A stretch of DNA of 64,000 bases from Amphiura filiformis. Lineage: Eukaryota > Echinodermata > Ophiuroidea > Amphilepidida > Amphiuridae. Below are positions 16,148-59,311 of the stretch, in pieces. The stretch lies in contig NC_092637.1 in assembly GCF_039555335.1 (NCBI RefSeq), positions 38,652,526-38,716,525 on the forward strand, written 5' to 3'. Each line of letters begins with the position of its first letter. The stretch's first letter is position 1. The notes below the pieces were generated by a model. That model was not told where the DNA came from, searched no databases, and saw only the letters and a program-made list of their open reading frames with translations. The translations under genes were made by a program, and so were the position numbers.

Positions 16148-16383
16148 ATTGTCAGTTAGTGCAAAGTTAGCTCTGTGTTTCTTTGGTGAAAGCAGGATAA
16201 TATTTTATTATCCAAAAAAAAATAGTGCCGTATTTTTCTGGAATCGCCGGAGTAAGGATACACCACTATTTGAGACTTTACCTTCCGACTCGCAGAGCAC
16301 TAAAAATCATGCTTTATTTTCGTTTTACTATATAGACCACATGATTGCAGTGACAGGGTCTGTACTGGGGTAGAATTACTTAC

Positions 16384-16460
16384 CAACATTCTAGTTTGTT
16401 CTGGAGTCAATGTGTCCCCTTCTTTGCATACTTTATGTTCTGCTAATAATGTAATAACAC
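16384..16460 (-). CDS. mrto4: MRTO4 exon 6
   Basis: Encodes residues 165-190, GVITLLAEHKVCKEGDTLTP and then EQTRML. The VCKEGDxLTPEQ motif is diagnostic for MRTO4 against ribosomal P0. The acceptor is TCTCAACAG and the donor GTAAGTAA. The flanking intron carries a nested pair of TIR elements (16551-17641) about 90 bases upstream in gene order. Confidence 0.95.
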
Positions 16461-16550
16461 CTGTTGAGACAAGAGAACAATATATTATTAGAATATTTAA
16501 AGAACCTGTGAAAAAAAAAAGAACAATTGTCTGAAGGCACTGGACTATTC

Positions 16551-17641
16551 TAGTTGAAATCCATACACCCCATATGGAAGACATGACCTTAAGGGAAGAA
16601 GTGCACCAAAAACACCCATTTATAGTCATATTTCATTGTCACTCCAGGTAAAAGAGCAGACTTTTTTCTTTCACATACTTTTTATTCCACAAAAATCGCA
16701 CTTACGGTTCCCAAGAAACTGCAATTTGAAGTGAAGTATCTTGCGCGATCAAATGTATTATTAATGTATTTTATTGTTTTTCAAGCAGTGATATTTATTA
16801 TGTATTTTATTGTTTTTCAAGTGGCGATATATAACATTTCTACAGTCAAAAATGTGTATCTCAGAAAGCAAATAAGCTTTTATCATGTTATCTTCACAAC
16901 AATTTGTAATAAATCAAGTGCCTGCTTCTTTTACATGTTGTATGCACTAAATTGCCATCTAATTTGCATACAAAATTAAAAAGGTGTTTCTAGATGTTTT
17001 TTAGAATTTTTCTCGTTTTTGCATTTTTGCACCTTCAAAAGAGTAACTTGAGGCCATTTTACGACGGATTTGAACGAAATTTTCACAGATTGTGTGTTTT
17101 GTTATTTGTAAAAAAAGTGTGGAAGTAGATTTTTGAATTTTGTTTTTGTTTTGACGCACTGTCACATTTTTTAGGTCAAAAAATCACATAAAATCACATG
17201 TTTTTGGCGTTATCAGGTTTTGGACTTATTTTTCAAAAAATGAAGCATTTTATAAAAATCTACTTCCACACTTTTATTTTGCTGCTTTTCAACTTTCATT
17301 TGAAAAACAAATCACATCTCTAGCACCAACGGTTGCGTTCCGTTACTATTTTGAAACCCGACACCTAAAATCCAAGATGGCCTCCAATTAAATATGCAAA
17401 TGAGAATTTTTTTTGCATTTTTTTTATTTTTTGGTCTCAAGTGTCATTTACACCAAGTATGAAGTTCCTAGCATGTTTAGTTTTAAAAAATGATTTTTGG
17501 TGCACTTCTTCCCTTAATCTTCCACACAGGGAGTGTGAATTTCAAATAGGATTACCTGAATGGATGACTCCATTTGAAATCTATACCCCCTGTGTGGGAG
17601 ATTAAGGTCATGTCATCAATAGGGGTGTATGGATTTCAACA
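16551..17641. mobile_element. TIR element (GAAATCCATACACCCC ends), split by a second element
   Basis: Left end TAGTTGAAATCCATACACCC C and right end GGGGTGTATGGATTTCAACA. Removing the nested element 16593-17513 leaves about 170 bp, matching in layout the intact relative at 27086-27221. The interruption is at a TTAA in the word GACCTTAATCTTCC, which appears uninterrupted as the complement near 17601-17612. Confidence 0.75.
16593..17513. mobile_element. 921-bp TTAA-flanked element nested in another TIR element
   Basis: TTAA at 16589-16592 and 17514-17517. Termini GGGAAGAAGTGCACCAAAAA and its complement at the right end. The host element shows the site with a single TTAA, so the duplication is directly supported. 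A second inverted pair of words, CTACTTCCACACTTTT and its relative AAAGTGTGGAAGTAG, lies at 17259 and 17115. No ORF. piggyBac- or Kolobok-type by target. Confidence 0.83.
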
Positions 17642-25256: not shown

Positions 25257-25782
25257 CTTTCTTAGGCTATTTCTTGGAAATAGCGTACCTGTAGATTAAC
25301 TTTTCGCTGCCACCATGTTACGTGCTTGCCGGCTTTTCTCTTTGAAACTATGAAATGTTATAGTTTTTCTTTAGTCTTCGACATCAAAAATCACACCATC
25401 ATTAATAATTCTTAAGAGTCTTTTATTCATCTCTTCATCCTCCCTCCCCTCTTTCCGAATCCTCCTCTTATTATTCTTTTCTTCCTTCCCCCTCGCGCAG
25501 CTCTTCCTCCAAATCAAACGCAAATGCTCACCGCGTCGCACCCCGCATAACGCGCCGCGTCACACCGCGGAAACCCTGTTGATATCATGACATATGTCTT
25601 TCAACAAGATTGGAGCATTTTCAATTTGTTACCTCTGTGTGACCTTTCGTGACCTCTAGCGGACACCAGGGTCAAATCCAAAGTGGCTCCTTAAAATCAA
25701 CATCGGGCCTTGTACTTCCCAGTTTAGGAACTTAGCAGCTATATATGAGGGTTTACAGAAAGGGCAAGGGTTACAGACTGAC

Positions 25783-25932
25783 CTCAATACTTCATCTTCT
25801 GTGTCATTTGTAAACAACAACCCAACGTTTCCCAAAAGCCGTTTGCTCATATCATGTAATCCATCTCTGTACTCAGCCTCACTGCTTTTGCCCAAGGCTA
25901 CAGCCATTACCTTATTCTTACCAAAGAAGAAC
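25783..25932 (-). CDS. mrto4: MRTO4 exon 4
   Basis: Encodes residues 64-113 plus two bases of codon 114. Visible family motifs are FFFGKNKVM near residue 65, ALGKS near 76, and MSKRLLGN followed by GLLFTN near residues 92-104; the last is the L10-family core strand. The acceptor is CTGTCACAG and the donor, after TTGAG, is GTCAGTC. Reading past the donor soon loses similarity to the family, which supports the splice site chosen. Intron 3 is about 1.3 kb and intron 4 about 5.5 kb. Confidence 0.95.
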
Positions 25933-26752
25933 CTGTGACAGAGATAAAAGATATACTTAGTAATTATATATCCTTGGAGATATAAAAAAAAAAGGACTGT
26001 ATGTTAAAGGTGGTGAGGTGATCGGATTTGAACATTATTCTGTTTTCTACCTTACATTGAGTCCTATCATTAAAACAATGTCATACACTCTTAGATAGCA
26101 AGAACCAATTAGAGCAAGTGTTAGAAAAATGCAAACCATGCATTGATTGTGTATCTATGCATGGGCACGTACTCTGCGTACTACCCGCAGTGCTTTCGGA
26201 CACGTTCAATTTTCTTGTGGGTTGATACATTTATATTTGCTTGTATTTTCCAACACATTAGTGTCAATTTTGTTACAAAAATAGCAAAAATCATGGCTAA
26301 TAAGTGCATATCACTCTTGCTTAAGAATACCACTTTTTAGTTCAAACCATCTATAAAACATATAATGGATGACAAATTCTATTGGGGTAATGAATGAGAA
26401 ATATATCATGAGCTTTCTTCTGATAACAAAAACTCCCGTTTTGACCTCATCAATCTGGTCATACACCTATAAAAGCCAGAAAGAAAGAAATTAGTTTGTG
26501 TTTAAAGATCATGTCAATCAAATTCTACATGGGTTGTGATAGTTAACATCGCATAGCTAACGAGGGCACTGCCCTAGCACTATCCTAGTTACGCGGTACT
26601 AACCAATCGCAGCTTTGTTGGAGTTTGATTGACAGAACATTAACATTTTGCATCAAACCAGACCAATAAAATGCCACCCACATTGCAGTTCTGTTTCCAC
26701 AACTAGCAGTTGTCTTCATCATCTACCAATCTTGTCACCAAGTCATCATTAA

Positions 26753-29932: not shown

Positions 29933-30834
29933 GGCTATAAATGAAAGTTGATTCCTTGTTTCCCGTTACCCTACTCCGCTCAAAACCAATTGCTGGCCAA
30001 ATATTTCATTATTTTGAATAAAATGTTGATATCTAACAAACTTTAACATACCAATAAATAATTGTGGTTTTAAATATATCATAAATCTTTCTGTTGATTT
30101 TCAGGTATTTTCTTTGGAGCATATATGGTTAATAATGAATTAATAATGAATACCTACCGGTACTCACTTCTCTGTCCCGCACTTTTTGATCTGCTCTGAT
30201 CTCATCCCGTAAAAAATTTGTGAAACTTTTGATAAGGCTAAGTAAAAAATAAAACATGTTTCACCTCCGGGTTTTCTAAAAAAAGGAGGAAGAGGGGGCT
30301 TTTTATTTTCTATTTTTTTATCGCAAAATTGGTGTAAATACCTATACTTATTGCTGTTTTAGCGTATAATCTGTACATACAATAATGCCTGGAAAAAGGA
30401 GGAGGCCCTTTTTATTTGTTGTAATGAGAGTTACACCCACTCTAATGATCACAAAACCTTCCTAAAATGTTTCTTGTATCTTAACAAGGCTGTAGAAAGC
30501 ATCCCAACTTCCTAGACATATTTCTTGAAAAGTTATAACTGAATTTCAAAAATAAAAAATAATTTGAGAAAACCTCAAAAAAGGAAGCGGGAGGGGACGT
30601 GAAACATGTTTATTTTTTTATTTGGCCTAATAGTAATTGTTCACCTTCATGTGGTTGTAAACTACATCTGTAACTACAAACTGTGATTTATCACATGTAT
30701 ACATGGGTAGTTATTGGTTTACACCTGTAACAGATGCAATAATGAAATGGTATGAATAATGAAAAATGAAATGGTCACCTACACAGTCATGAAAAATTGT
30801 GTAACGGGAAACAAGGAATTGACTTTCATTGGCC
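29933..30834. mobile_element. family A element, copy A1, TTA target duplication; hosts B1
   Basis: TTA at 29930-29932 and 30835-30837. Ends GGCTATAAATGAAAGTTGAT and ATTGACTTTCATTGGCC, each followed inward by GTTTCCCGTTAC. Three-base TTA/TAA duplications and GG...CC ends are the signature of PIF/Harbinger transposons. No transposase. It contains B1 (30236-30627). MRTO4 intron 1. Confidence 0.82.
30236..30627. mobile_element. family B element, copy B1, inserted in A1
   Basis: TAA at 30233-30235 and 30628-30630. Ends GGCTAAGTAAAAAATAAAAC and TTTATTTTTTTATTTGGCC, with AACATGTTTCAC just inside both. A3 carries the uninterrupted A sequence at the same place (near 33005-33030 on the opposite strand), so the insertion is read directly. 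Interior words include AAGGAGGAAGAGGGGGCTTT. Confidence 0.82.
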
Positions 30835-31053
30835 TTAAGGAACTGCCTGGAGAGCCTGAAAAAGGGACCCTTGACCGCCGCACATACCCGTACCGCCTTT
30901 ACATGTGAGTGCCCCCCCCCCCCGGCATGCACCCTAGTTGAAGTGTCGCACCCTAGTTGAAGTGTCGAGTGACTACAAAACAAATTTCGAACTTTTGAGC
31001 TGTGAGTTCCAATTATTGGAACTACATATGTACATTATGCACCCATCATATTA

Positions 31054-32630
31054 GACCAAGTAAAATAAAAAACATGTTTCACGTCCGGGTTTTTGAAAAA
31101 AGGAGGAAGAGGGGGCTTTTTATTTTTTATTTTTTATCGCAAAATCAGTGAATACCCATAATTAGAGCTGTTTTAGTGTATACAATAGGTTAAACAATAA
31201 TGCCTGGAAAAAGAAGGAGGCCTCTTTTTATTTCTTGTTCTGAGAGATAGGCCCCCTCTAACTATCACAAAAGTTATAAAAGTGTTTCTTGTATATTAGG
31301 CTAATGAAAGTTGATCCCCAGTTTCCCGTTACATAGTTTTTCATGACTGGGTAGGTGACTGTTTCATTATTCATTATTCATTATTTTCAAACTTTCATTA
31401 TCGGTGCAAAGTTAATTACGGAATGCTAGGGCCTATGTTTTGAGGCCCAAATAAAATAATAAAGTATAGTATTAAATGACCATGCTTCACTCAAATATTT
31501 TACCAACTTAGTCTTCAAAACAAATTTTAATTAAGCACATCTTCTTTGGAATCTTCAAATTAACCTATAGGTTGTGCAACATATATGAAAGCACCAGAAG
31601 TCCATGATAGTCTTTGGAGAACCTGGAGGACTGTGACAACTTGCTTTCCCCAAACACTGCATCTCACTATCTCGAGATCAGACAGCGACAGTCCGACAAA
31701 TAAAACATTAAATGATTGACCAATGTCGGTTGTAATAATTGTCCACAGCAGTCGGACCTTGCCCTCCTCCTCCTCCACCTTCACAGAAATGAACATATTT
31801 ATCAAAAACACCAGTAGGGGAAAGTAAATTGTCACAGTCAAAATGAACAAATAAACAAAATTGAAAGCAGAAATAAACTAAATTTGACAATTCGAACGTT
31901 CACATGGAGGTTGCTGGTAAAAATCATCACAGGGTGCACGTGTTAATAATAAAACAACCATGCAAGAAATTAACAAATAAATCATTTTATTTATAAGTTT
32001 ATTTTATTAAATACATATATTTGTAAGAAAAGCAGAATAAATTTGACTTCAAATTTTATTTATTTTATTTATTTTGATGTTGTCTATAGCGCTACATAGT
32101 GCACGGTCCTAAATGCTTTCATATTTGTTCATACGCTGGTTCCCTTGAACTTGGCTGCCTCTCTTTGTGTTAATCGGTCTATCCATTTAGTGGTAGAAGA
32201 AACTTAGATGCAGGGAATTGCTAGTCTCCAGTAAATGCGCCCTACGATATCGCCATTTTACCACGTAGTTTAACCCAGCGTTTGCAAAGACTATTCGGGC
32301 CGGTCAGGGTCGGCGTACAAGTGCTTAAAATACGTGGCGGACGTGAAAGATGACATTAAAACTATCCTTTTTTCTTAAAAACTTGAAAATGAGAAATAAT
32401 GAAATAATGGAAAATAATGAAATATTTGATCGGCATTTTTTTCTGACCGGAGTCGGGTAACGGGAAACTGGAAGTCAACTTTCATTAGCCTTAGCAAGGC
32501 TATAGAAAGCATCTCTACTTCCTAAACATATTTTTTGAAAAGTTATAACTCAATTTCAAAAAATAAAATTGAAGAAACCTCAAAAAGGAAGCGGAGGGGC
32601 GTGAAACATGTTTATTTTTTTTATTTGGCC
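31054..32630. mobile_element. family B element, copy B2, TTA target duplication; hosts A2
   Basis: TTA at 31051-31053 and 32631-32633. Ends GACCAAGTAAAATAAAAAAC and TTTATTTGGCC; AACATGTTTCACGTCCGG lies inside the left end and its partner in the right. Interior matches B1 until 31298, is broken by A2, and resumes at 32494 with GCAAGGCTATAGAAAGCATC. Confidence 0.82.
31299..32490. mobile_element. family A element, copy A2, inserted in B2
   Basis: TTA at 31296-31298 and 32491-32493. Ends GGCTAATGAAAGTTGATCCC and TCAACTTTCATTAGCC. B1 shows the corresponding empty site (TTTCTTGTATCTTAACAAGG). Only the outer ~100 bases resemble A1 and A3; the core differs and includes ATTTATTTTATTTATTTTGA near 32057. 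Confidence 0.82.
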
Positions 32631-32644
32631 TTATAGTACAATCA

Positions 32645-33611
32645 AGTTAATTTTTTATTACTTCCGTGGTCCGGGTACGCACTGGTGAATTGCGATCGCG
32701 TAGAAGTGACAAGGTCGCCGCAGGGTCAGAATTTGGCAGGGTCAGAATTTCAGCGTGAATCAGAGTTAAGATTCTCGTAAGGCCAATGATGAAAGTCAAT
32801 TCATTGTTTCCCGTTACACAATATTTCATTACTGTGTAGGTGACCATTTCATTTTTCATTATTCATTATTTTATACTATTTCATTATTGCATCTGTTACA
32901 GGTGTAAACCAATAACTACCCATGTATACTTGTGATAAATCACAATTTGTAGTTTACTAAAATTACAGATGTAGTTTACAAGCACATGAAGGTAATTGTG
33001 CAACTATTTTCAGAAGTTTCACAATATTTTTTACTGGATGAGATCAGAGCAGATCAAAAGGTGCGGGCCATTGAATTGAGTAGGTATCATTATTAATTCA
33101 TTTTAACCATATTATACCATGCTCCTACTGCAAAGAAAATCCCTGGAAATCAACAGAAAGAGATTTATGATATATATTTAAAACCACAATTATTTATTGG
33201 GTATGTTAAAGTTTGTTAGAAATCAACATTTTATTCAAAATAATGAAATATTTGGCCAGCAATTGTTTTTGAGCGGAGTAGGGTAACGGGAAACAAGGAA
33301 TCAACTTTCATTAGCCTAAACAGTTGATTCTCGCAAACGTTTGTAATCATGACCAGTAGTTTACACAGAAGTTGATTTGCGAGAATCAAATGATTCCCGC
33401 TAATTTATTCTGCAAGAATCAAGATTGATTCTCGCACTGTGAAACGAAATTCTGACCCTGCAATGGGTCAACCGGCTTGTTGTCAAGTCCGTTGATCAGC
33501 CAATCAGTGATGTGTGATTGTTAAATTTGTCTTCTGTGTGTACGCTCGTCTACGCTCATGACGCTTGGCGCACAGCTCGGTCGGACCACGGAAGTAATAA
33601 AGAATTAACTT
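32645..33611. mobile_element. TIR element C, hosts A3
   Basis: AAGTTAATTTTTTATTACTT then CCGTGGTCCG at the left; CGGACCACGGAAGTAATAAA then GAATTAACTT at the right. Words GCGAGAATCA and TTCTGACCCTGC recur inverted within. Removing A3 leaves about 430 bp. Target duplication not clear. Confidence 0.65.
32781..33316. mobile_element. family A element, copy A3, TAA target duplication
   Basis: TAA at 32778-32780 and 33317-33319. Ends GGCCAATGATGAAAGTCAAT and TCAACTTTCATTAGCC. It is inverted relative to A1 and lacks B1, giving the empty site. Words GATGAGATCAGAGCAGATCA and AATATTTGGCCAGCAATTG match A1 in reverse. Confidence 0.82.
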
Positions 33612-36267: not shown

Positions 36268-37408
36268 GGGAGTGTTCAGAAATACTTTGGTGGGGGGGGC
36301 TGGTAAAAAGGGAGGGGGGAAAAAAAGGTTTTGGACCTGAAAAAAGGGGACCAAAAAGTTTTAGGTGGTAGGAAAGGGGGGGCCAAAAAAGTTTTCCGCT
36401 TTAAAACCCAAACTTTTTCGCGCGCTTCGCGCGCATTGAGACCCTATATCACTTTCAACATGGGCAAATTTTGGTTTTCAGTGCTTTTGTTTGAAAAAAT
36501 GATGGCACTTAGTGTACACATATATCTATTAATTAATATAACATTAAAGATGATCAGCAACATCTTGGTTGGTCTAAGAAATACTGGCACTTTTTTATCA
36601 TAGAATTTTATATCTTTTCAAAGTAGGCTACAAACATGATTATGTACCAATCTGATCAAAATACAACTAATTCAAGAAAACATTGCAAATAAATTGGATT
36701 TCTTTGCACGTAAACTGCACACTTCAGTTTACTATTTCTCATTGCAAAATTATTTTGTACACATAGGCCCATGGGTAGATTTACCATAAGGCAGAGTGGG
36801 CACAGGCCCAGATGCCACGGTCTTTGTATTTTGGGGCCAAAACTGATACCCGTCTACATTTGCGTGACCAAATTAATCTCATTATTTGACCATTTTAGCT
36901 TTTTGCATAAATTAGTTCCAATTTTAACAATTATTTGACCATTCAAACGTCAATATGGCCAAATTGTTTGCGCGGTTCGCGCGCATTATTTTGTACTATT
37001 ATAATAGCCACGGATCCAAATTATGCTGATGTGCCTATGAACCTCCAAATAAATCATCTATTTCATTTATCCCTGTACAATCAGATAAACACCCTGATTT
37101 GGGACAAATCTAAATTAAGTATAAAATGAAAATTTCCTCGTGCTTGTATTTCATGCACAATTGTCCCACCGAGAATGTTTCAAACATTTGCCTCCCTCAA
37201 TGACATGTGACCCAGATATCACACCACTGGAAAAACACTATTAAGTATAATGTTTGTTATACGATAATGGGGGGGGGTCAAAAAGTTTTGTCTGTCAAAA
37301 GAGGGGGGTCAAAAAGTTTAGCGGTCCAACGAGGGGGGGAATAATAGTTTTCGAGCGAAAAATGTGACAAAGACCAGCCCCCCTACCAAAGTATTAATGA
37401 ACACTCCC
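36268..37408. mobile_element. 1.14-kb TIR element, TTA target duplication
   Basis: TTA at 36265-36267 and 37409-37411. Ends GGGAGTGTTCAGAAATACTT TGGT and ACCAAAGTATTAATGAACAC TCCC. G-runs with GGGGTCAAAAAGTTT lie near both ends in opposite sense. TTA target plus GGG...CCC ends suit PIF/Harbinger. No transposase frame. Confidence 0.8.
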
Positions 37409-38524: not shown

Positions 38525-38799
38525 GGGACCGTTCACAAACACTTGTAAGGGGGGCCTGATGCAAAAAAAAATTTATCGCGAAAAATTTTCGGGGCCCCCT
38601 TTACAGACCTCGAAAATTTCAGCCCCCCCCCCCTTTTTGACATGAAAATTATGGGTCAACCCCATAGAAAAGCATATAAACTCAATTTTTCCAGGAAAAT
38701 TTGTGGTAATTTTTTTCAGGGCCCCCCTTTAGGAGGGTCAAAAATTTCAGCCCCCCCCTTGCATCAGGCCCCCCCTTACAAGTGTTTGTGAACGGTCCC
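38525..38799. mobile_element. 275-bp palindromic TIR element, TAA target duplication
   Basis: TAA at 38522-38524 and 38800-38802. Ends GGGACCGTTCACAAACACTT then GTAAGGGGGGCCTGATGCA, mirrored at the right end. Internal GGCCCCCTTT / AAGGGGGGCCC words continue the symmetry. PIF/Harbinger-like by target and GGG ends. Confidence 0.83.
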
Positions 38800-39826
38800 T
38801 AACTACACGCGGTATCTATGCATTGATGTACTTGCGAACAAAAGGACTATGTATGAATAGATGCGACGGGATTACCTGCGGAATTATCTCCATTATATAT
38901 ATTATTAGCTATTATTCTATTAACCCTCCTCGTCCTTGCATCTTCTCTAGGTGTTAGGCGGCTTTTATTTGCACAATTGGACGCTCAAACAGCAGGTTCG
39001 TGCTAGCGGGTACCCAAAGATGTCCGACCAAATCCTGACCATGACTTGGCTCGTTGGATTCGTCTATATATGAAGGTACTCCTCCTCCCCCAAAGGATTA
39101 AAATTCTTCTGTCGACTTGCGGGAGTCTGGTTAATAAAACAACACATCTGTCAATAAAAAGGATCAGTGCAGAAAGAAGCCCGTTTCTCCTGGAGAAAGA
39201 GAGTGATTATCGAAAGAAGCATCTTAGCTGGAGAAAGCGTCACATTTGCAAGGAGTTGAGTATTTGGAGAAAGCAGCATCATTTCTGTGCGAGGATTGTA
39301 CGCAAAGGATATAAAATATAAGCGAACAAGGATGTATACATTTTGCAGCCAGACCATTGTTCCAGAACACTATACTCATCGTACCTGCAGTAACTGATGT
39401 CCACAGGAAGAGAGAGGGGTATCGGACGCGCACAACTCTGTTACTTCTATAAGACATGTGCAGGTTTTTCTCTCAAGCCCTACGGCGAGGGGCTAATGAC
39501 GACGGGGGCAGGTGGAGGATACTACTGGGAAGCCTCTAGCCATGAATCTCCACGTAGGCGACTCGGGTGTGATGGTTGCTTTGACGTCGACTTGGAATGA
39601 CGACTCATCTTGTATCCTGCCCGAGTGACAAAGCAGCCCAGCCCACGGGACAGTACTGCTTTCCCCGGAAGGGGAGGGGATGATAAAAGGATTCCTTAAA
39701 AAGCTCATTCCACTTGTAATCTGCTCGTTCACCGTGGCTATAGCTGATTATCCAATTTAGCGGTAGAGCAAGAATTAGAACTAAACGTAAACAACGTAAA
39801 GGAAAGACAAATATCAATATTGCAGC

Positions 39827-40891
39827 ATGGAATGTCCGGACCCCAACAACCCAAACAACCTTGAACGCAGAATAACTGTAGTAGCAAAAGCACTGAAGCG
39901 TTATAACATTGATATAGCAGCGCTCTCTGAAACTCGTCTCCCAGACACTTCACAACTTGAAGAACATGGATGTGGCTACACATTCTTTTGGAGTGGCAAG
40001 CCAGCCAGTGAAGCCAGACAATCAGGAGTTGGGTTCGCCATACGGAACCAGCATCTTAAACTCCTTGACAAGCTCCCACACAGCGACAGACTTGCTATGA
40101 ATAGTGGCTTTGTTACCTTCATCAGCGCTTATGCCCCAACAATGGCATACTCAGACCAGGCCAAGGAAGAATTCTATGAGGAGCTGGACCATATCATTCA
40201 GTCAGTACCACGTTCTGACAAGCTGTTTCTACTTGGTGACTTCAATGCTCCTGTTGGATCAGATCATGCAGCATGGCAGAAAGTCCTTGGTCATCATGGA
40301 GTTGGAAAGGAAAATTCAAATGGCACCCTTTTGCTAACCTTGTGTGCTGAGAAGCAGTTGGTCATTACCAACACACTGTACACCCAGAAAGACAGCTTCA
40401 AGACAACTTGGCGACATCCACGCTCTGGTCACTGGCACCAAATCGACTTCATCATCATTAGGCAGAGAGACTGGCATGATGTCAAACTTACTCGTGCAGC
40501 CAAAGCATCAACGTGTCACTCGGACCATGCCCTCCTGAAAAGCAAAGTGTCCATCCGCTTCAAACTGAGTCGACAGCATCAACGTGTCCAAGGAACCAAG
40601 AAATTACATGTTACCAAGCTTGCAACCAGTGAGGCACAAGCCACTCTCAGGGACAACATTGCATCTGCCCTCGTCGACCTCGTAGACACCGAGTACAGTG
40701 ATGCAGCTAGCCACTGGGAAGAGCTCCGCAAGAAAATTGATCAGGCATCAGCTGACTCCCTGGGTTATGCAAAGAAGAAGCATAAAGACTGGTTTGATGA
40801 AAAAGATGTCTCAGTGAACGTTCTGCTTGATGAACTGCACTCCCTTCACATCGAGTATGCCAACAACAAAGACTCTCAGGCAACCATGTGA
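39827..40891 (+). pseudogene. LINE endonuclease domain (frame 1)
   Basis: Motifs in order: ALSETRL near residue 36 (catalytic Glu), LLGDFNAPVG near 144 (Asp/Asn pair), and STCHSDHALL near 237 (catalytic Asp-His). The opening strand of the domain, AAWNVRT, is read from 39806 in another frame, so a frameshift lies near 39850 and the ATG at 39827 is not the ancestral start. The frame ends at 40891 with a 4-base overlap to the next piece, another indel. The gag-like part expected upstream in some clades is not seen. Confidence 0.88.
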
Positions 40892-41571
40892 AGCAAAAGG
40901 CTCAAGCGAAGCTACGTGAGATGAAGGACAACTGGTGGCGTTGCAGGACACAGGAATTACAGGAAGCTGCTGACACAAAGAATATCAAGAAGTTCTTTAG
41001 CGAGCTCAAGGCGGTCTATGGACCTTCTTCCAGAGGAACCAGCCCACTACTTGACCTTGATGGACATACTGTGATCAAGGAACCGTCACTCATCACAGAG
41101 AGATGGGCTCAGCACTTCAACCAGCTGCTCAACCGCCAGTCAACAATCTCTGAGGAGGCAATTGCAGTAATACCACAAAACCCAGTAATTGAAGAGCTCG
41201 ACCAACCACCTACTGTTGAAGAAACAGTAAAGGCGATCAAACAGCTTTCTAGTGGCAAAGCTCCAGGCGAGGATGGCATTCCCCCAGAAGTTTACAAATA
41301 TGGTGGAGATAAGCTTGTGTCCGAGCTAACGCGGCTCTTCAAAGAACTCTGGGCAGAAGGTGAGGTTCCACAGGATTTCAAAGATGCTCTGATAATACAC
41401 TTCTACAAGAACAAAGGGGATAGACGCATTTGTGACAACCATCGTGGTATATCGCTGTTAAGCACTGCTGGTAAGATCGTCGCCAGAGTGATCATCAATC
41501 GTCTTACTACCCATCTTGATAGCACCTTTCCAGAGAGTCAATGTGGCTTTAGACATGCTATTTGCAGCTAG
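40888..41571 (+). pseudogene. LINE RT, N-terminal part
   Basis: Linker then RT motifs 0-2: LSSGKAPGEDGIPPEVYKY near residue 116, DALIIHFYKNKGDR near 165, DNHRGISLLS near 183 and SQCGFR near 218. A stop follows at 41571 and the next piece starts 45 bases later, so a short stretch after the GFR motif is shifted. Confidence 0.88.
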
Positions 41572-41615
41572 ACAAGTTCAGGAGAAATGCAGGGAACACA
41601 ACCTAGACCTGTATA

Positions 41616-42107
41616 ATGGTGTTTGTTGATCTCACCAAAGCCGTCGACTCTGTCAGTCGTGAAGGCCTCTGGAGGTTACTACTGAGGATAGGATGCCCAC
41701 CAAGAGTAGTTAAGATAATCCGCTCATTTTATGATGGCATGATGGCCCGCATATCGGACCTAGGGACAACACCGGAAGCATTTCCAGTGTCAAATGGTAC
41801 CAAGCAGGGATGTGTTATGGCCCCTCTATTGTTTAGCATCATCTTCTCTGCAATGCTTCAAGATGCCTTCAAGGACTGTAACGAAGGAGTCATGATCAGG
41901 TTTATAAGCGATGGTGGAATCTTCAACCTTCAACGCCTGAAAGCCAAGACAAAGGTGTCTCTATCACTTCTGCGTGAGCTACTATTTGCTGATGATTGCG
42001 CCCTGATTGCCTATACCGAAGAGGATCTACAGAGCATTCTCAACGACTTTGCTAGAGCAGCCACACGCTATGGTCTTACCATAAGCATTAAGACGACGAT
42101 CAACTAA
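41616..42107 (+). pseudogene. LINE RT, catalytic part
   Basis: Contains motif A FVDLTKAVDSV (Asp at residue 5; the usual Phe after Ala is Val here), motif B NGTKQGCVMAPLLFS near 60, and motif C LLFADDCAL near 123 with the catalytic Asp pair. Ends ISIKTTIN at a stop; about 25 residues normally following the KT motif are missing before the next frame. Confidence 0.88.
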
Positions 42108-42112
42108 AGGTT

Positions 42113-42887
42113 GTGCAGAAGTTCTGCTATCTAGGTGGCTTCCTCTCACAGAATGCCTGCATTGATGATGAGATCACTTCACGAATTAGCAAAGCAAGCG
42201 CCAGTTTCGGACGGTTGCATCACAGACTCTGGTCTGATCATGGCATCCGACTCAGTACTATTAAGCTCGGTGTATATAGAACAGTTGTGCTATCCACCCT
42301 CCTTTATGGAAGTGTCTCTTGGACCTGGTATCGCCGGCATGTGAGAAAACTTGACCAATTCCATCTAAGGTGCCTTCGTAAAATATGTGGTATCTCATAT
42401 GGAAGGACAGAGTACCAAACACCTCAGTACTTGAGCGCTGTGAATCGGAAGGTATTGAGGCAATCCTCATCAAAGGTCAACTCCGCGCCGGGCTGGACAT
42501 CTTGTTCGCATGGATGATAGCAGAATACCAAAGGCCCTGTTTTATGGCGAGCTAGTCAATGGTCAGCATTCACGAGGAGGTCAACACAAGAGATTCAAGG
42601 ATGTCCTTAAATCCAGTCTGAAAGCATGTGATATACCTACTGCATCTTGGGAGAGTCAGGCTCTCACCCGTCCAGAGTGGCGATCCGCTTGTCGTGCTGG
42701 TGTTAGGAAATTCGAGCAGCGACGTATCAAGACGCTCCAGGAAGCCCGCTCAGCCCGCCATGCTACACAAAGCCAAATTCCACCAAGCAATACTGATTAT
42801 GTCTGCCCTGACTGTCAACGACACTGCCGTTCCCGCGCAGGATTGGTCAGCCACCGCAGAAAACATCTAACCCTCAACCAGATTTGA
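42113..42887 (+). pseudogene. LINE RT thumb region and C-terminal zinc finger
   Basis: Two overlapping frames, 42113-42517 and 42510-42887. The first starts KFCYLGGFLSQNACIDDEIT and includes LSTLLYGSVSWT. The second has MDDSRIPKALFYGEL, GGQHKRFKDVLKSSLKACDI, and ends with the finger CPDCQRHCRSRAGLVSHRRK H (C-X2-C-X12-H-X3-H). The overlap shows one more frameshift. Confidence 0.86.
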
Positions 42888-45603: not shown

Positions 45604-45896
45604 AGAGGTATATCATTTTATTCGAAAGGGGGGGTCCCAAATATACGGGGGTCATAAAGTCTTGGAAAGAATAATAGGAGGGGGTCATAAAATGTTTTAT
45701 GACCAAAATGTATAGGGAGTCACACGATGACCACAGAAAGTGACAGTGTTATTTTATTCAAAAAGACTGATTTCAATACAATTTTGGGGTTTGGGATCAT
45801 AAAATTTTTGTTGCCGAAGTAGGGGGTGCGCAATTTTATTGACGCAGACTTTTTGTAAATTTGGGACCCCACTTCCGAAAAAAATGATAGCCCTCT
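45604..45896. mobile_element. TIR element, AGAGG...TATCATTTT ends
   Basis: AGAGGTATATCATTTTATTC and GGGGGGGTCCCAAAT at the left are mirrored by ATTTGGGACCCC and GAAAAAAATGATAGCCCTCT. The interior has GGGGTCATAAAGT repeats, recalling the CCCGGGG family's GGGGTCATT units. Confidence 0.6.
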
Positions 45897-49401: not shown

Positions 49402-50438
49402 TTAAGAATCATAAAATTGAGAGTTGTATATTGTTTTGAAAGTTGCTGTGCTAATTGGGAGAGGTGATTTCAGTTTAGGATCTAGTGAATTCCAGGCCTT
49501 AGCCCCTCTGAATAAGAATGAGCGTCTACCAGCTTCAATTCTGGGTTTGAAATTAAGTGCAATATTGCCATGAGCGCTACCACGTGTATTGTGACGATGA
49601 CTGGTTTTCACAGAGGTAAAATTGTTTGCATATACTTTGGAACAAAACCAGCAATACATTTATAAGTTAAAAGACACAGATGGTCTTGTCTAAGGTTGCT
49701 AAGAGGCTTCCATTTAAGTTTTTCCCTGATTAAAGAAGATGGTGTCCTGACTGGAACTTTAAGAATGGCCCTCCCAGCCCTGTTCTGGAGACGCTCAATC
49801 CTATTCAGAAGCGTGTTATTGCAATTTCCCCATACAGTATCACAGTAAGTCAATCTTGGAAGAATAAGAGCTTTATAAATTGTATTCATGTGGTTAGCAG
49901 ATAGCCATTCCCTGATTCTGTACAACATACCAATGTATTTCGAAACTGTTAAACAAGTTTGATTAATTTGTGCTTCCCATTTTAGATTTTGGTCGAGAAT
50001 GACTCCCAGGTATTTACATTGATTTACATTTTCAAGTTGTTCCCTATTCATGTAAAGACTTAGCTCATCAACCCTTGCATTAAAATAACTTGAACAAAAA
50101 AGCATGGCTTTTGTTTTTTTAGCATTTAAGGTCAATTTGTTCACTTCCATCCACGATGTAATTCGTTTAAGATCATCATTAAGATGCACATTGATCTCAT
50201 TTATGTCTTTTGATGAGCGAAAAACGGCCGTGTCGTCAGCATAAAGCGTGATTTTGGTATCACTGGACACAGTTAGAGGCAGATCATTGATGTACATCGT
50301 GAATAGAAGTGGGCCCAAAATTGTACCTTGAGGCACACCAAAGCTGACACATTTGAATGCAGAAATAGTACTACCAATCTTAGTTGCCTGCTCTCTATCA
50401 CTAAGATAAGATTTAAACCAATCCAGCTCCAGACCCAA
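49402..50438 (-). pseudogene. LINE RT catalytic and C-terminal parts
   Basis: GVPQGTILGPLLFTMYINDL near residue 34 (motif B) and KITLYADDTAVF near residue 64 (motif C, catalytic Asp pair at about 50235). NQCKYLGVILDQNLKW and LILPRLTYCDTVWGNC mark the thumb region. A second frame, 49402-49659, carries the C-terminal signature RRSFLFRGAKAWNSLDPKLK. The two frames overlap by 52 bases, indicating one indel near 49630. Confidence 0.88.
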
Positions 50439-50499
50439 AATTCCAAAAGATGTAAGCTTCTGAATAAGAATGGCATGATTGACCGTATCGAATGCCTTT

Positions 50500-51198
50500 T
50501 TAGGTCAATAAAGACCCTCCAACAAAATGGCCAGCATCAATGTTCTGGAGGATGTATTCTGAAACATCGATCAAAGTGGTAAGTGTGGAATGTTTGGGTC
50601 TGAATCCGGATTGATGTGAAGAGAGCAAATTATGTTGACTTAAAAAGGCATACAACTGATTATGAATTAGGCGTTCAAAAGTTTTCATAACAACAGGAAT
50701 AACAGAAATTGGACGGTAGTTGTTGACATCGTCTCTGGACCCCTCTTTGAATAAGGGAGTGACTCTACATAATTTCCATTTTTGAGGGACCTGCCCACTG
50801 GATAAGCTGTTGTTGAATAACTTAGTCAAAGGAGTAGTAAGGGGACCAGCCCCTGCTTTGAGAAGCCGACTGTTAATACCATCTAAACCAGTTGCTTTCT
50901 TTGTATCTAGAGACTTGAGACACTTAAAAACCTGCTCCTCAGTTATGGGGGAAAATTTAAAATGATTACCCTTAAAAGTAGACATTTGATTAGAATATTT
51001 ATCATCAACATTGTCAAACTTTTCTGCTAATTTTTCACCAACAGAAGAAAAGAAATTGTTCATAGCATCAGCTACTTGTTGTTTGTCATTAACAATTCCA
51101 TCCTGCGTTTTAACAGCAGGGATATCACTTTTGGTTTTACCAGGTAATACGGTTTTAAGTGTTTTCCAAAGTCCACGTGGATCACTTTTTTGTTTCAT
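50500..51198 (-). pseudogene. LINE RT, N-terminal part
   Basis: DTKKATGLDGINSRLLKAGA near residue 97, CRVTPLFKEGSRDDVNNYRP ISVIP near 143, and HQSGFRPKHST near 195. The frame is lost just before RT motif A (DLK..AFDTV), where the A run near 50500 appears one base short relative to an intact frame. Confidence 0.87.
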
Positions 51199-51398
51199 TA
51201 AGTTTTTGCTGAAGATCCTTGGATTTCAATTTATTGCGCAAATTATTAACTTTGTTTCTGAGAAGTTTTGCCTTCTCCCCCAATCTGCTGAGGATTTGGA
51301 TTTCTCAGCAATTTCACGAGCTTTTTGACTCTGCCGTCTCAAATTTAGATAATCATTAGTGATCCATGTGGGCTGTTGGTCAGATACTTTGATCCTCT

Positions 51399-51983
51399 TT
51401 ATAGGAGCATGCTTATCACATACTGGAAGAAATAAATCAACAAACTTGTCCCAACCTTGGTCTGGGCTATCAGCCGTGCCAACAGGATCCCAGTTGATAT
51501 CTTGAAGATCAGCTGCAAATTTGGTCTCATTAAAATGGCGGTAAGATCGAGCCTCAATAATTTTGGACTGACGTTTGATGGTAATATTTTTCTTCCAGCA
51601 TAAATAAGTGAATGGTCACTAAGTGTACAGGTATTTACATCTCTACTTGAGTACATGTGTGGCCTGTTAGTCCAGATATGGTCAATGCAACTTTTAGTGT
51701 TCTTAGTTATACGAGTTGCTTTTGTTATGATTTGTTGAAGTTTAAAAATACCCATTGTTTTTTCAAAATTTCTCCATTGAGAAGTATTTGTTTCAAATTG
51801 GTTGAAGTTAAAGTCTCCTACGCACACTATTTCACATGGAATTTTACGTTTATTTATTGATTCTAATATATCATGTAAAGCAATTTCAAAAGTCTCACAA
51901 AAGTTTGTTTCTATTTCTGATCTATAAACTGCTCCAAGAAGAATTGGACGAGTTTTTGGTAATGAAAGGTGAATCCATAACAT
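51399..51983 (-). pseudogene. LINE endonuclease, C-terminal part
   Basis: GAVYRSE near residue 18, CVGDFNFNQF near residue 55 (catalytic Asp/Asn) and LSDHSLIYAGRK near residue 121 (Asp-His). It then drifts into a frame-shifted linker. The next frame begins at 51198 after a gap in which the linker is read in other frames. Confidence 0.85.
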
Positions 51984-52048
51984 TTCTGATGTTTCCGGTA
52001 GAATAGGCTCAAGTAGTGTATAAGAAAGTTGGCTGTTGACATAAATGG

Positions 52049-52498
52049 CTACACCCCCTCCATTTCGGGTCCTGTCCTTCGGTGAAGATTGAAATTTGGA
52101 ATGTCCAGCTCTGATGAGCAGATAGTATAATTGAGCTTAGTCTCCATTAAAGCAATGACATCAGGCTTACACTCAATAACTAACAGGCGTAGTTCCTCTA
52201 ATTTTGCATATAAGGAACATATATTGAGCGAGATGATCTTCAGCCCTTTAACCATCCTTATGTTTGCGTAAGGGGTTTCTGTAACTTTTGTTTTGCTATT
52301 ACCATTATTAGAGGGCTGCTCGTTTGGACCAGGGTGGGGTTGTATGTCCCCACAGTCTAATAAGTTAACTCGAAAGGTGGAAACCGAGTTACTATAATAG
52401 CAAATTGGACGAGATAGAGTACATTTGGTTGTTTTAATACAGTCAGTTTGACATGGTTTGGCACAGGTTACTTGATTGCTATCTGCACCTAAACACAA
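52049..52498 (-). pseudogene. LINE N-terminal segment and start of endonuclease
   Basis: A Cys-rich start is followed by NLLDCGDIQPHPGPNEQPS at about residues 46-64, then the endonuclease opening LKIISLNICSLYAKLEELRL and the catalytic-Glu motif ALMETKL near residue 116. GDIQPHPGP occupies the place where related LINEs carry a GD(V/I)ExNPGP 2A-like peptide. The frame fails at GPEMEGV and continues in another frame. Confidence 0.82.
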
Positions 52499-53039
52499 AA
52501 CAGCAACACAGCAAGCTGGTAGAAATTCATTGTTGCCAAGTCAAGTACCACTTCAAATTGCTTAAAAGTAGAAGTTCCTTGATAGCTCTTATTGAAGATG
52601 ATTATTGGAAAATTGATTGAAATCAACCATGCATGGGCCTAGTAGATGTTATCAATACTACCACACAAATCCTTGTCAATACTGTAGAATTCTCCTACCT
52701 GATTTGCACATCAGCTGAACAATATTTGAAGACAATTAAACTTATTTAGTTGACAGTCGAATGGTAAAAATACATCAAAATTTTTCATAACAGTTACGTA
52801 ATCAATCGATAGTGCGGACACTTTTCATCTGCAAACCACCAATATTCGTGATCTTTTAGCGTTGGAAAAGAAACCACGTGAATAGAGTGCCCTCTCAAGA
52901 ATAGGTTCTCTGTGGTTCTATTTTCAAAGGTCATTTAACTGTTAAATGTAGTGGAATATATCACGCATTGATAGGTAGCAGGTGGAGCAAATTTTGTCAG
53001 CGGTTTTTGCTGCCGTTTGTTCGCAGTGCCTATTTATCT

Positions 53040-58195: not shown

Positions 58196-58375
58196 GTAAG
58201 TAGAGGAGACATTAGTAAATACTGAAGTTTATTCCGTTAGTTTATGGTTGGTCTAAATGCCTAATGTCAGTCTGTCGAAAAATGGCTAACTGCAAGCCGC
58301 CATTTTGGTGTCAAAATTTGGATTACCGCTGACTGAAAACTGATGTCATTTTATTTTATGTTTTTGTGTTGACAG

Positions 58376-58683
58376 AAACACACCCCGAAAAGCAGAAATT
58401 GGTAGAGCGTGCCAGGCTTTCTGAGCAAGCCGAACGGTACGATGACATGGCCGCAGCTATGAAAGAATTGACTCAAAACCACAAAACGTTGTCCAATGAG
58501 GAGAGGAATCTGCTTTCGGTTGCCTACAAAAATGTAGTGGGCGCACGTCGTTCATCATGGAGGGTAGTTTCAAGTATCGAACAGAAAGCTGGCAGCGATC
58601 AGAACGAGAAGAAAGTAGCAATGGCAAAGGAATACAGATTGAAAATAGAGGCGGAACTGAATGAGATATGCGATGATGTTCTG
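58376..58683 (+). CDS. 14-3-3 protein, exon 2 (gene continues off window)
   Basis: Encodes residues 7-109: dimerisation helices 1-2 ([20 protein letters not shown]) and the hallmark [20 protein letters not shown]. The phosphate-clamp residues of helix 3 are present as K58 and R65 (equivalent to K49 and R56 of the zeta isoform), followed by SSIEQKAGS and [11 protein letters not shown]. The acceptor is TGTGTTGACAG; the donor after CTG is GTACGT and leaves phase 0. The remaining ~140 residues, with the rest of the groove, are not in the next 5.3 kb, so intron 2 is at least that long. Isoform type (zeta-like or epsilon-like) cannot be settled from this half. Conservation is complete and the gene looks functional. 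Confidence 0.95.
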
Positions 58684-59311
58684 GTACGTATTTTTTGACA
58701 GCAACGCCTGTGACTGAAAGAGGTCAGGAAGTGCCGGTGTGTGTACGTGTGGGAGGGTCCTTGTGCGCGAGTAACCTTGCTGCATGCTTGACGTATGTGA
58801 GTGTAGCGACGGCCATGTGCTCTGTAAATGTAGTGTAGCAAAAATGGGCGGTGCAAAACTCGTGATAGTTTCGTTTGGTTCATTTTTATACGGAAGTGAT
58901 ACATTCTGCCCTGGTACATTATGAAATAAATAAAATAAGGCTAATTTACTGAATATTGGCTAGACTTGCATGTTGCATCGACCTGGTCCATGGTTTTGTT
59001 CATCAGCACCACTAATTCATATTGCTTGACATGACCTTGGGGAGTGACTCTGACTGAAAGTTCATCAGTTACATGTTGTATAGTTCTCTTTGACATGTGT
59101 CACAAACATGAGGTGATGTTACATGTTAGGTGGGTCATGATTATAGTTTATACACATTACATGCATAACAATTGTGTATGCATAGCCATGCTGGTAAAAA
59201 AAATACTATTCATGAACCACACAACCAGAAAGTGCATGAGTGTCATGAGTGTGTTTGATCTGAATCATTTTAGTCTCAGCATATCTGCATCACTGATCAC
59301 TGCAGAATGTC

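Follow-up and report, generated by a model that had tools for sequence, protein, structure and literature searches.

Nesting in both directions between two families of probable PIF/Harbinger-type MITEs in Amphiura filiformis

The window, meaning the whole 64-kb stretch of Amphiura filiformis DNA that was analyzed, carries several coding signatures outside the cluster of short elements described below. Two reverse-strand open reading frames about 9 kb apart (16303-16632 and 25656-26003) match ribosomal L10 families, with Ribosomal_L10 above its cut-off and RL10P_insert just below its own, and are probably exons of one gene. A forward-strand open reading frame (58333-58698) matches the 14-3-3 family at its start (E 5.7e-34) and is probably an exon as well. 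Two LINE-type retrotransposons, at 39800-42887 on the forward strand and 49608-52540 on the reverse strand, are represented by endonuclease and reverse transcriptase pieces; these are split over several open reading frames, and both elements are therefore probably decayed. Rfam at gathering scores returned no matches, and ARAGORN returned no genes.

Between the L10 and LINE regions lies a cluster of MITEs belonging to two families, designated A and B, one of whose members sits inside a third inverted-repeat element, designated C. The window contains three copies of A and two of B. Element boundaries were fixed by terminal homology together with matching target duplications, and the strands of the A copies were assigned so that A1 is plus. 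The elements are as follows:

29933-30834, plus strand: A1, a family A MITE of the short subfamily, split by B1, with TTA/TTA duplications
30236-30627, plus strand: B1, a family B MITE of 392 bp inside A1, with TAA/TAA duplications, carrying the A2 empty site
31054-32630, plus strand: B2, a family B MITE split by A2, with TTA/TTA duplications
31299-32490, minus strand: A2, a family A element of the long subfamily, 1192 bp, inside B2, with TTA/TTA duplications
32651-33604, no strand assigned: C, the third inverted-repeat element and host of A3, with 30-bp arms that are 97% complementary
32781-33316, minus strand: A3, a family A element of the short subfamily, 536 bp, free of any B insertion, inside C, with TAA/TAA duplications

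Removing each guest restores a collinear host. What is left of A1 after removal of B1 and one duplicate, 507 bp, aligns along the full length of A3 in reverse complement; what is left of B2 after removal of A2 and one duplicate, 382 bp, does the same with B1. The site at which A2 interrupts B2, reading TATATTA, then A2, then TTAGCAAGG, matches TATCTTAACAAGG in B1, where the empty site is TTGTATCTTAACAAGG. Likewise, the site at which B1 interrupts A1, reading TTGATAA, then B1, then TAATAGT, matches CTGAAAATAGT in A3. This second empty site reads TGAAAATAG in A3 and TGATAATAG in A1 after removal of B1; the A3 version is one base off in the duplicated triplet, with AAA where TAA is expected. A preliminary description of this DNA had placed B1 in A1, A2 in B2, and A3, lacking B1, in C, and guest removal bears out that arrangement. 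Its proposal that B1 supplies the empty site for A2 agrees with the alignment to B2 minus A2, and the empty site for B1 that it recognized in A3 is real, given the one-base departure. It had also credited all five A and B copies with TTA or TAA duplications and with GGC or GACC ends, as the counts below confirm.

The three A copies are not equivalent. What A2 has in common with A1 and A3 is limited to about 80-104 bp at either end. By MAFFT, one of these ends spans 80 aligned columns at 84-85% identity and the other spans 95-103 columns at 77-78%, while the same ends are 80-86% identical in blastn pieces. A MAFFT comparison of the R end of A1 and A3, with differences in 12 of 95 columns, seems to overstate the divergence through the placing of gaps and was not used. 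The A2 interior, about 1 kb (31404-32405), has no match to A1 or A3. Compared with the rest of the 64-kb window, it shows short, weak matches only, the best being 35 bp at 80% (E 0.015), so the origin of this interior was not found. Because the interior differs, the A element that entered B2 is of another subfamily from the A element that hosts B1. The nesting is thus reciprocal only if family A is taken broadly.

Element C has outer bases AAGTTAA...TTAACTT, and its 30-bp complementary arms span 32644-33611. The TTAA tetranucleotides that flank it, at 32647-32650 and 33605-33608, may be target duplications, although TTAA is itself palindromic and could equally belong to the inverted repeat of C. 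B1, treated as a single-stranded RNA, folds at -108.2 kcal/mol (z -5.41), and none of 100 shuffles reached an energy as low.

All five A and B elements are flanked by matching 3-bp duplications of the form TWA (TTA or TAA). From the trinucleotide frequencies of the window, a same-TWA pair is expected by chance at 0.0014 per element and about 6e-15 for five, a figure that presupposes the boundaries, which terminal homology had fixed. Nine of the ten termini start with GGC; the exception is the left end of B2, which starts with GACC. A GG start of the terminal inverted repeats is a trait of the PIF/Harbinger superfamily. Within the PHIS group, the TWA duplication is the stated mark of PIF/Harbinger in the excerpted text of PMC4482050. 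For Medicago, consensus ends that start with GG are given in an extract of PMC2213677, which requires in addition a G(N)5GTT motif. That motif is absent from the A and B ends GGCYAATGAAAG and GGCCAARTAAAA; it served as a filter in the Medicago survey (as excerpted in PMC2213677), and we do not regard it as defining the superfamily. Like MITEs, the elements are also short (382-1192 bp without guests) and have inverted ends, and no coding capacity was recognized in the stretches scanned. A further mark of MITEs is a high copy number in the genome; the window contributes three A and two B copies.

Of the 50 stop-to-stop stretches of at least 35 aa around the cluster, 10 were compared with Pfam, and none matched at a curated cut-off; of the 53 open reading frames of at least 90 aa in the window, 47 went through the scan without a hit to any transposase family at E of 0.1 or below. 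Since the scanned reading frames hold no transposase, the superfamily assignment rests on duplications and ends. Both fit the PIF/Harbinger membership proposed earlier for the cluster, but the scanned frames provide no enzyme to match. According to portions of PMC2836001, proteins of the PIF/Harbinger superfamily mobilize Tourist-like MITEs; short derivatives move in trans through a transposase and an ORF1 protein, and mPing can be moved by the proteins of Ping as well as by those of Pong. Because enzymes of the superfamily act in trans on short derivatives, a transposase encoded elsewhere is the likeliest mechanism here.

Several searches addressed the distribution of these elements across the window. 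The A end GGCYAATGAAAGTY has four exact matches, all of them A ends; with up to two mismatches there are five, which is not an enrichment (8 of 100 shuffles reach five). The B motif AAACATGTTTCACSTCC, with up to three mismatches, has five matches, four of them at B ends, and none of 100 shuffles reaches five. When the elements were compared with the whole 64-kb window by blastn, no copy above 40 bits was listed outside the cluster. When TWA-flanked G...C inverted pairs (14 bp, at most 3 mismatches, 80-3000 bp) were sought blindly, eight turned up in the window; 20 shuffles within 200-bp blocks gave 1-6 (mean 3.25). Three of the eight are B1, B2, and A2. A1 and A3 were missed, and each has three extra bases inside one end; these lie just inside the terminus at 29933-29947 (A1 left) and at 32781-32795 (A3 left, in window orientation), by comparison with the other A ends. 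Viral contigs were scanned for exact matches to an A end and to a B interior; neither pattern occurred, a result that is uninformative for a eukaryotic repeat.

Three further candidates were noted elsewhere in the window. The first, a candidate MITE of 275 bp at 38525-38799, has TAA duplications, and its 30-bp inverted ends (GGGACCGTTCACAAACACTTG...) are identical and fit G(N)5GTT. The second, at 36268-37408, is a candidate element of 1141 bp with TTA duplications, whose ends (GGGAGTGTTCA...) also fit G(N)5GTT and resemble those at 38525. The third, at 45605-45895, is a weaker candidate of 291 bp with TAA duplications and GAGG-type ends, of a kind of which shuffles yield one to six pairs by chance.

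The boundaries, target duplications, nesting, and empty sites are observed features of the cluster. In all likelihood, the cluster consists of PIF/Harbinger-type non-autonomous MITEs that arrived by separate cut-and-paste insertions into TTA or TAA sites. B2 would have inserted and later been struck by A2, A1 would have inserted and later been struck by B1, and A3 would have inserted into element C. The moving enzyme would have been a Harbinger-type transposase, together with an ORF1 partner, encoded elsewhere. Alternatively, the nested pairs, A1 with B1 and B2 with A2, might each have been made once in another place and moved in as composites. Such composites would leave the outer elements A1 and B2 with intact duplications of their own, as is found, but serial local insertion predicts the same, and the duplications do not discriminate between the two. 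Nothing at this single locus requires composites, and neither compound had a second copy in the blastn listing, for a window of only 64 kb. We consider composite arrival quite unlikely.

The inverted copies A1 and A3 lie about 1.9 kb apart; they share a stretch of 113 bp with 98% complementarity and a second, of 29 bp, with 100%. One might imagine that inversion, gene conversion, or a similar local rearrangement involving these two copies had produced the apparent nesting. TAA and TTA being reverse complements of each other, the target duplications say nothing about an A1-A3 inversion and supply no argument against it. Element C, however, retains both arms around A3, so that no breakpoint of an A1-A3 inversion is left there; with C intact, this inversion was set aside, and it would in any event leave the nesting of B1 in A1 and of A2 in B2 unchanged. 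The positions at which A1 and A3 differ show no significant clustering (longest identical run 69, permutation p 0.78; cumulative deviation p 0.16), and for B1 and B2 the longest identical run is 55 (permutation p 0.052; cumulative deviation p 0.11). An origin of the nesting by rearrangement is scarcely credible.

Divergence between copies bears on the order of events. MAFFT alignments contain 57 differences in 504 columns for A1 and A3 (K2P 0.123) and 54 in 379 columns for B1 and B2 (K2P 0.159). Global affine-gap alignments, with 15 gap events in each, contain 19 differences in 492 columns for the A pair (K2P 0.040; 96.1% identical) and 40 in 376 for the B pair (K2P 0.115; 89.4% identical). 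By the affine counts, A1 and A3 are more alike than B1 and B2 (Fisher p 1.1e-4). One 60-column block of the A1/A3 comparison drops to 57% identity in MAFFT and is resolved as indels by the affine alignment, and the affine counts are therefore preferred; because the two alignments disagree, the divergence clock, with A1/A3 younger than B1/B2, is kept just as a leaning. The B1 insertion cannot predate the A copy it interrupts, so most of the affine difference between B1 and B2 would reflect an older B2 or diverged B sources. B2 is probably older than B1, and we lean toward an order, not a robust one, in which B2 may have come early, A1 later, and B1 last. The preliminary description had looked to divergence, with nested guests removed, for order and timing. 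The alignments proved collinear, but the age order depends on whether MAFFT or affine alignment is used.

The nesting also bears on the activity of the families. B2 predates A2, and A1 predates B1, so neither family's insertions can all precede the other's: the activity periods of A and B overlapped or alternated. This conclusion stands even if a nested pair came as a composite; the nesting does not establish in what order events took place at this locus. The earlier view that both families were mobile with the other present is sustained to the extent that, with nesting both ways, neither activity was wholly earlier, but the A copies concerned belong to two different subfamilies. By eye, the ends of A and B both carry GGCYAA. 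It is conceivable, if rather doubtful, that A and B were moved by one transposase in the same period and favored each other's AT-rich TWA sites, in which case the cluster would be a self-targeting landing pad of two co-mobilized families.

Short elements of this description are familiar. Like A and B, mPing of rice and Harbinger3N_DR of zebrafish are short, with inverted ends and no recognized coding capacity, and mPing is described with a TTA duplication, as in the A and B elements. For A and B no partner transposase was found among the scanned reading frames, and the likeness to mPing and Harbinger3N_DR is one of structure. Nested MITEs are likewise documented. In carrot, according to a partial text of PMC3695323, DcSto1 has DcSto2 or a Tourist-like MITE nested inside it, and so resembles the present elements in having a MITE within a MITE with clear duplications; the same text cites Jiang and Wessler (2001) for common self-nesting of MITEs in maize and rice. 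The nesting described there for DcSto1 runs in one direction, whereas here each of two families is found inside the other within about 3.4 kb. Medicago PIF/Harbinger elements also hold nested insertions of other elements, by the excerpt of PMC2213677. In the silkworm study PMC2997013, as excerpted, MITEs nested in repeats were filtered out, and the word "nested" is absent from the extract of a plant MITE review (PMC12595863).

Counts of which element is inside which have been used to infer relative periods of transposon activity in the TinT chronology (extract of PMC3014933). TinT, as set out in that extract, is a genome-wide likelihood method for retroposons, whereas the A/B cluster offers one event in each direction. 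The cluster is thus a neat case of something already known, nested MITEs being documented and nesting counts being in use for transposon dating, and it brings no new mechanism by itself. It provides a clean, small example in which nesting, empty sites, and target duplications together allow insertion order to be read in one stretch of sequence, and the whole genome would let families A and B be dated against each other.
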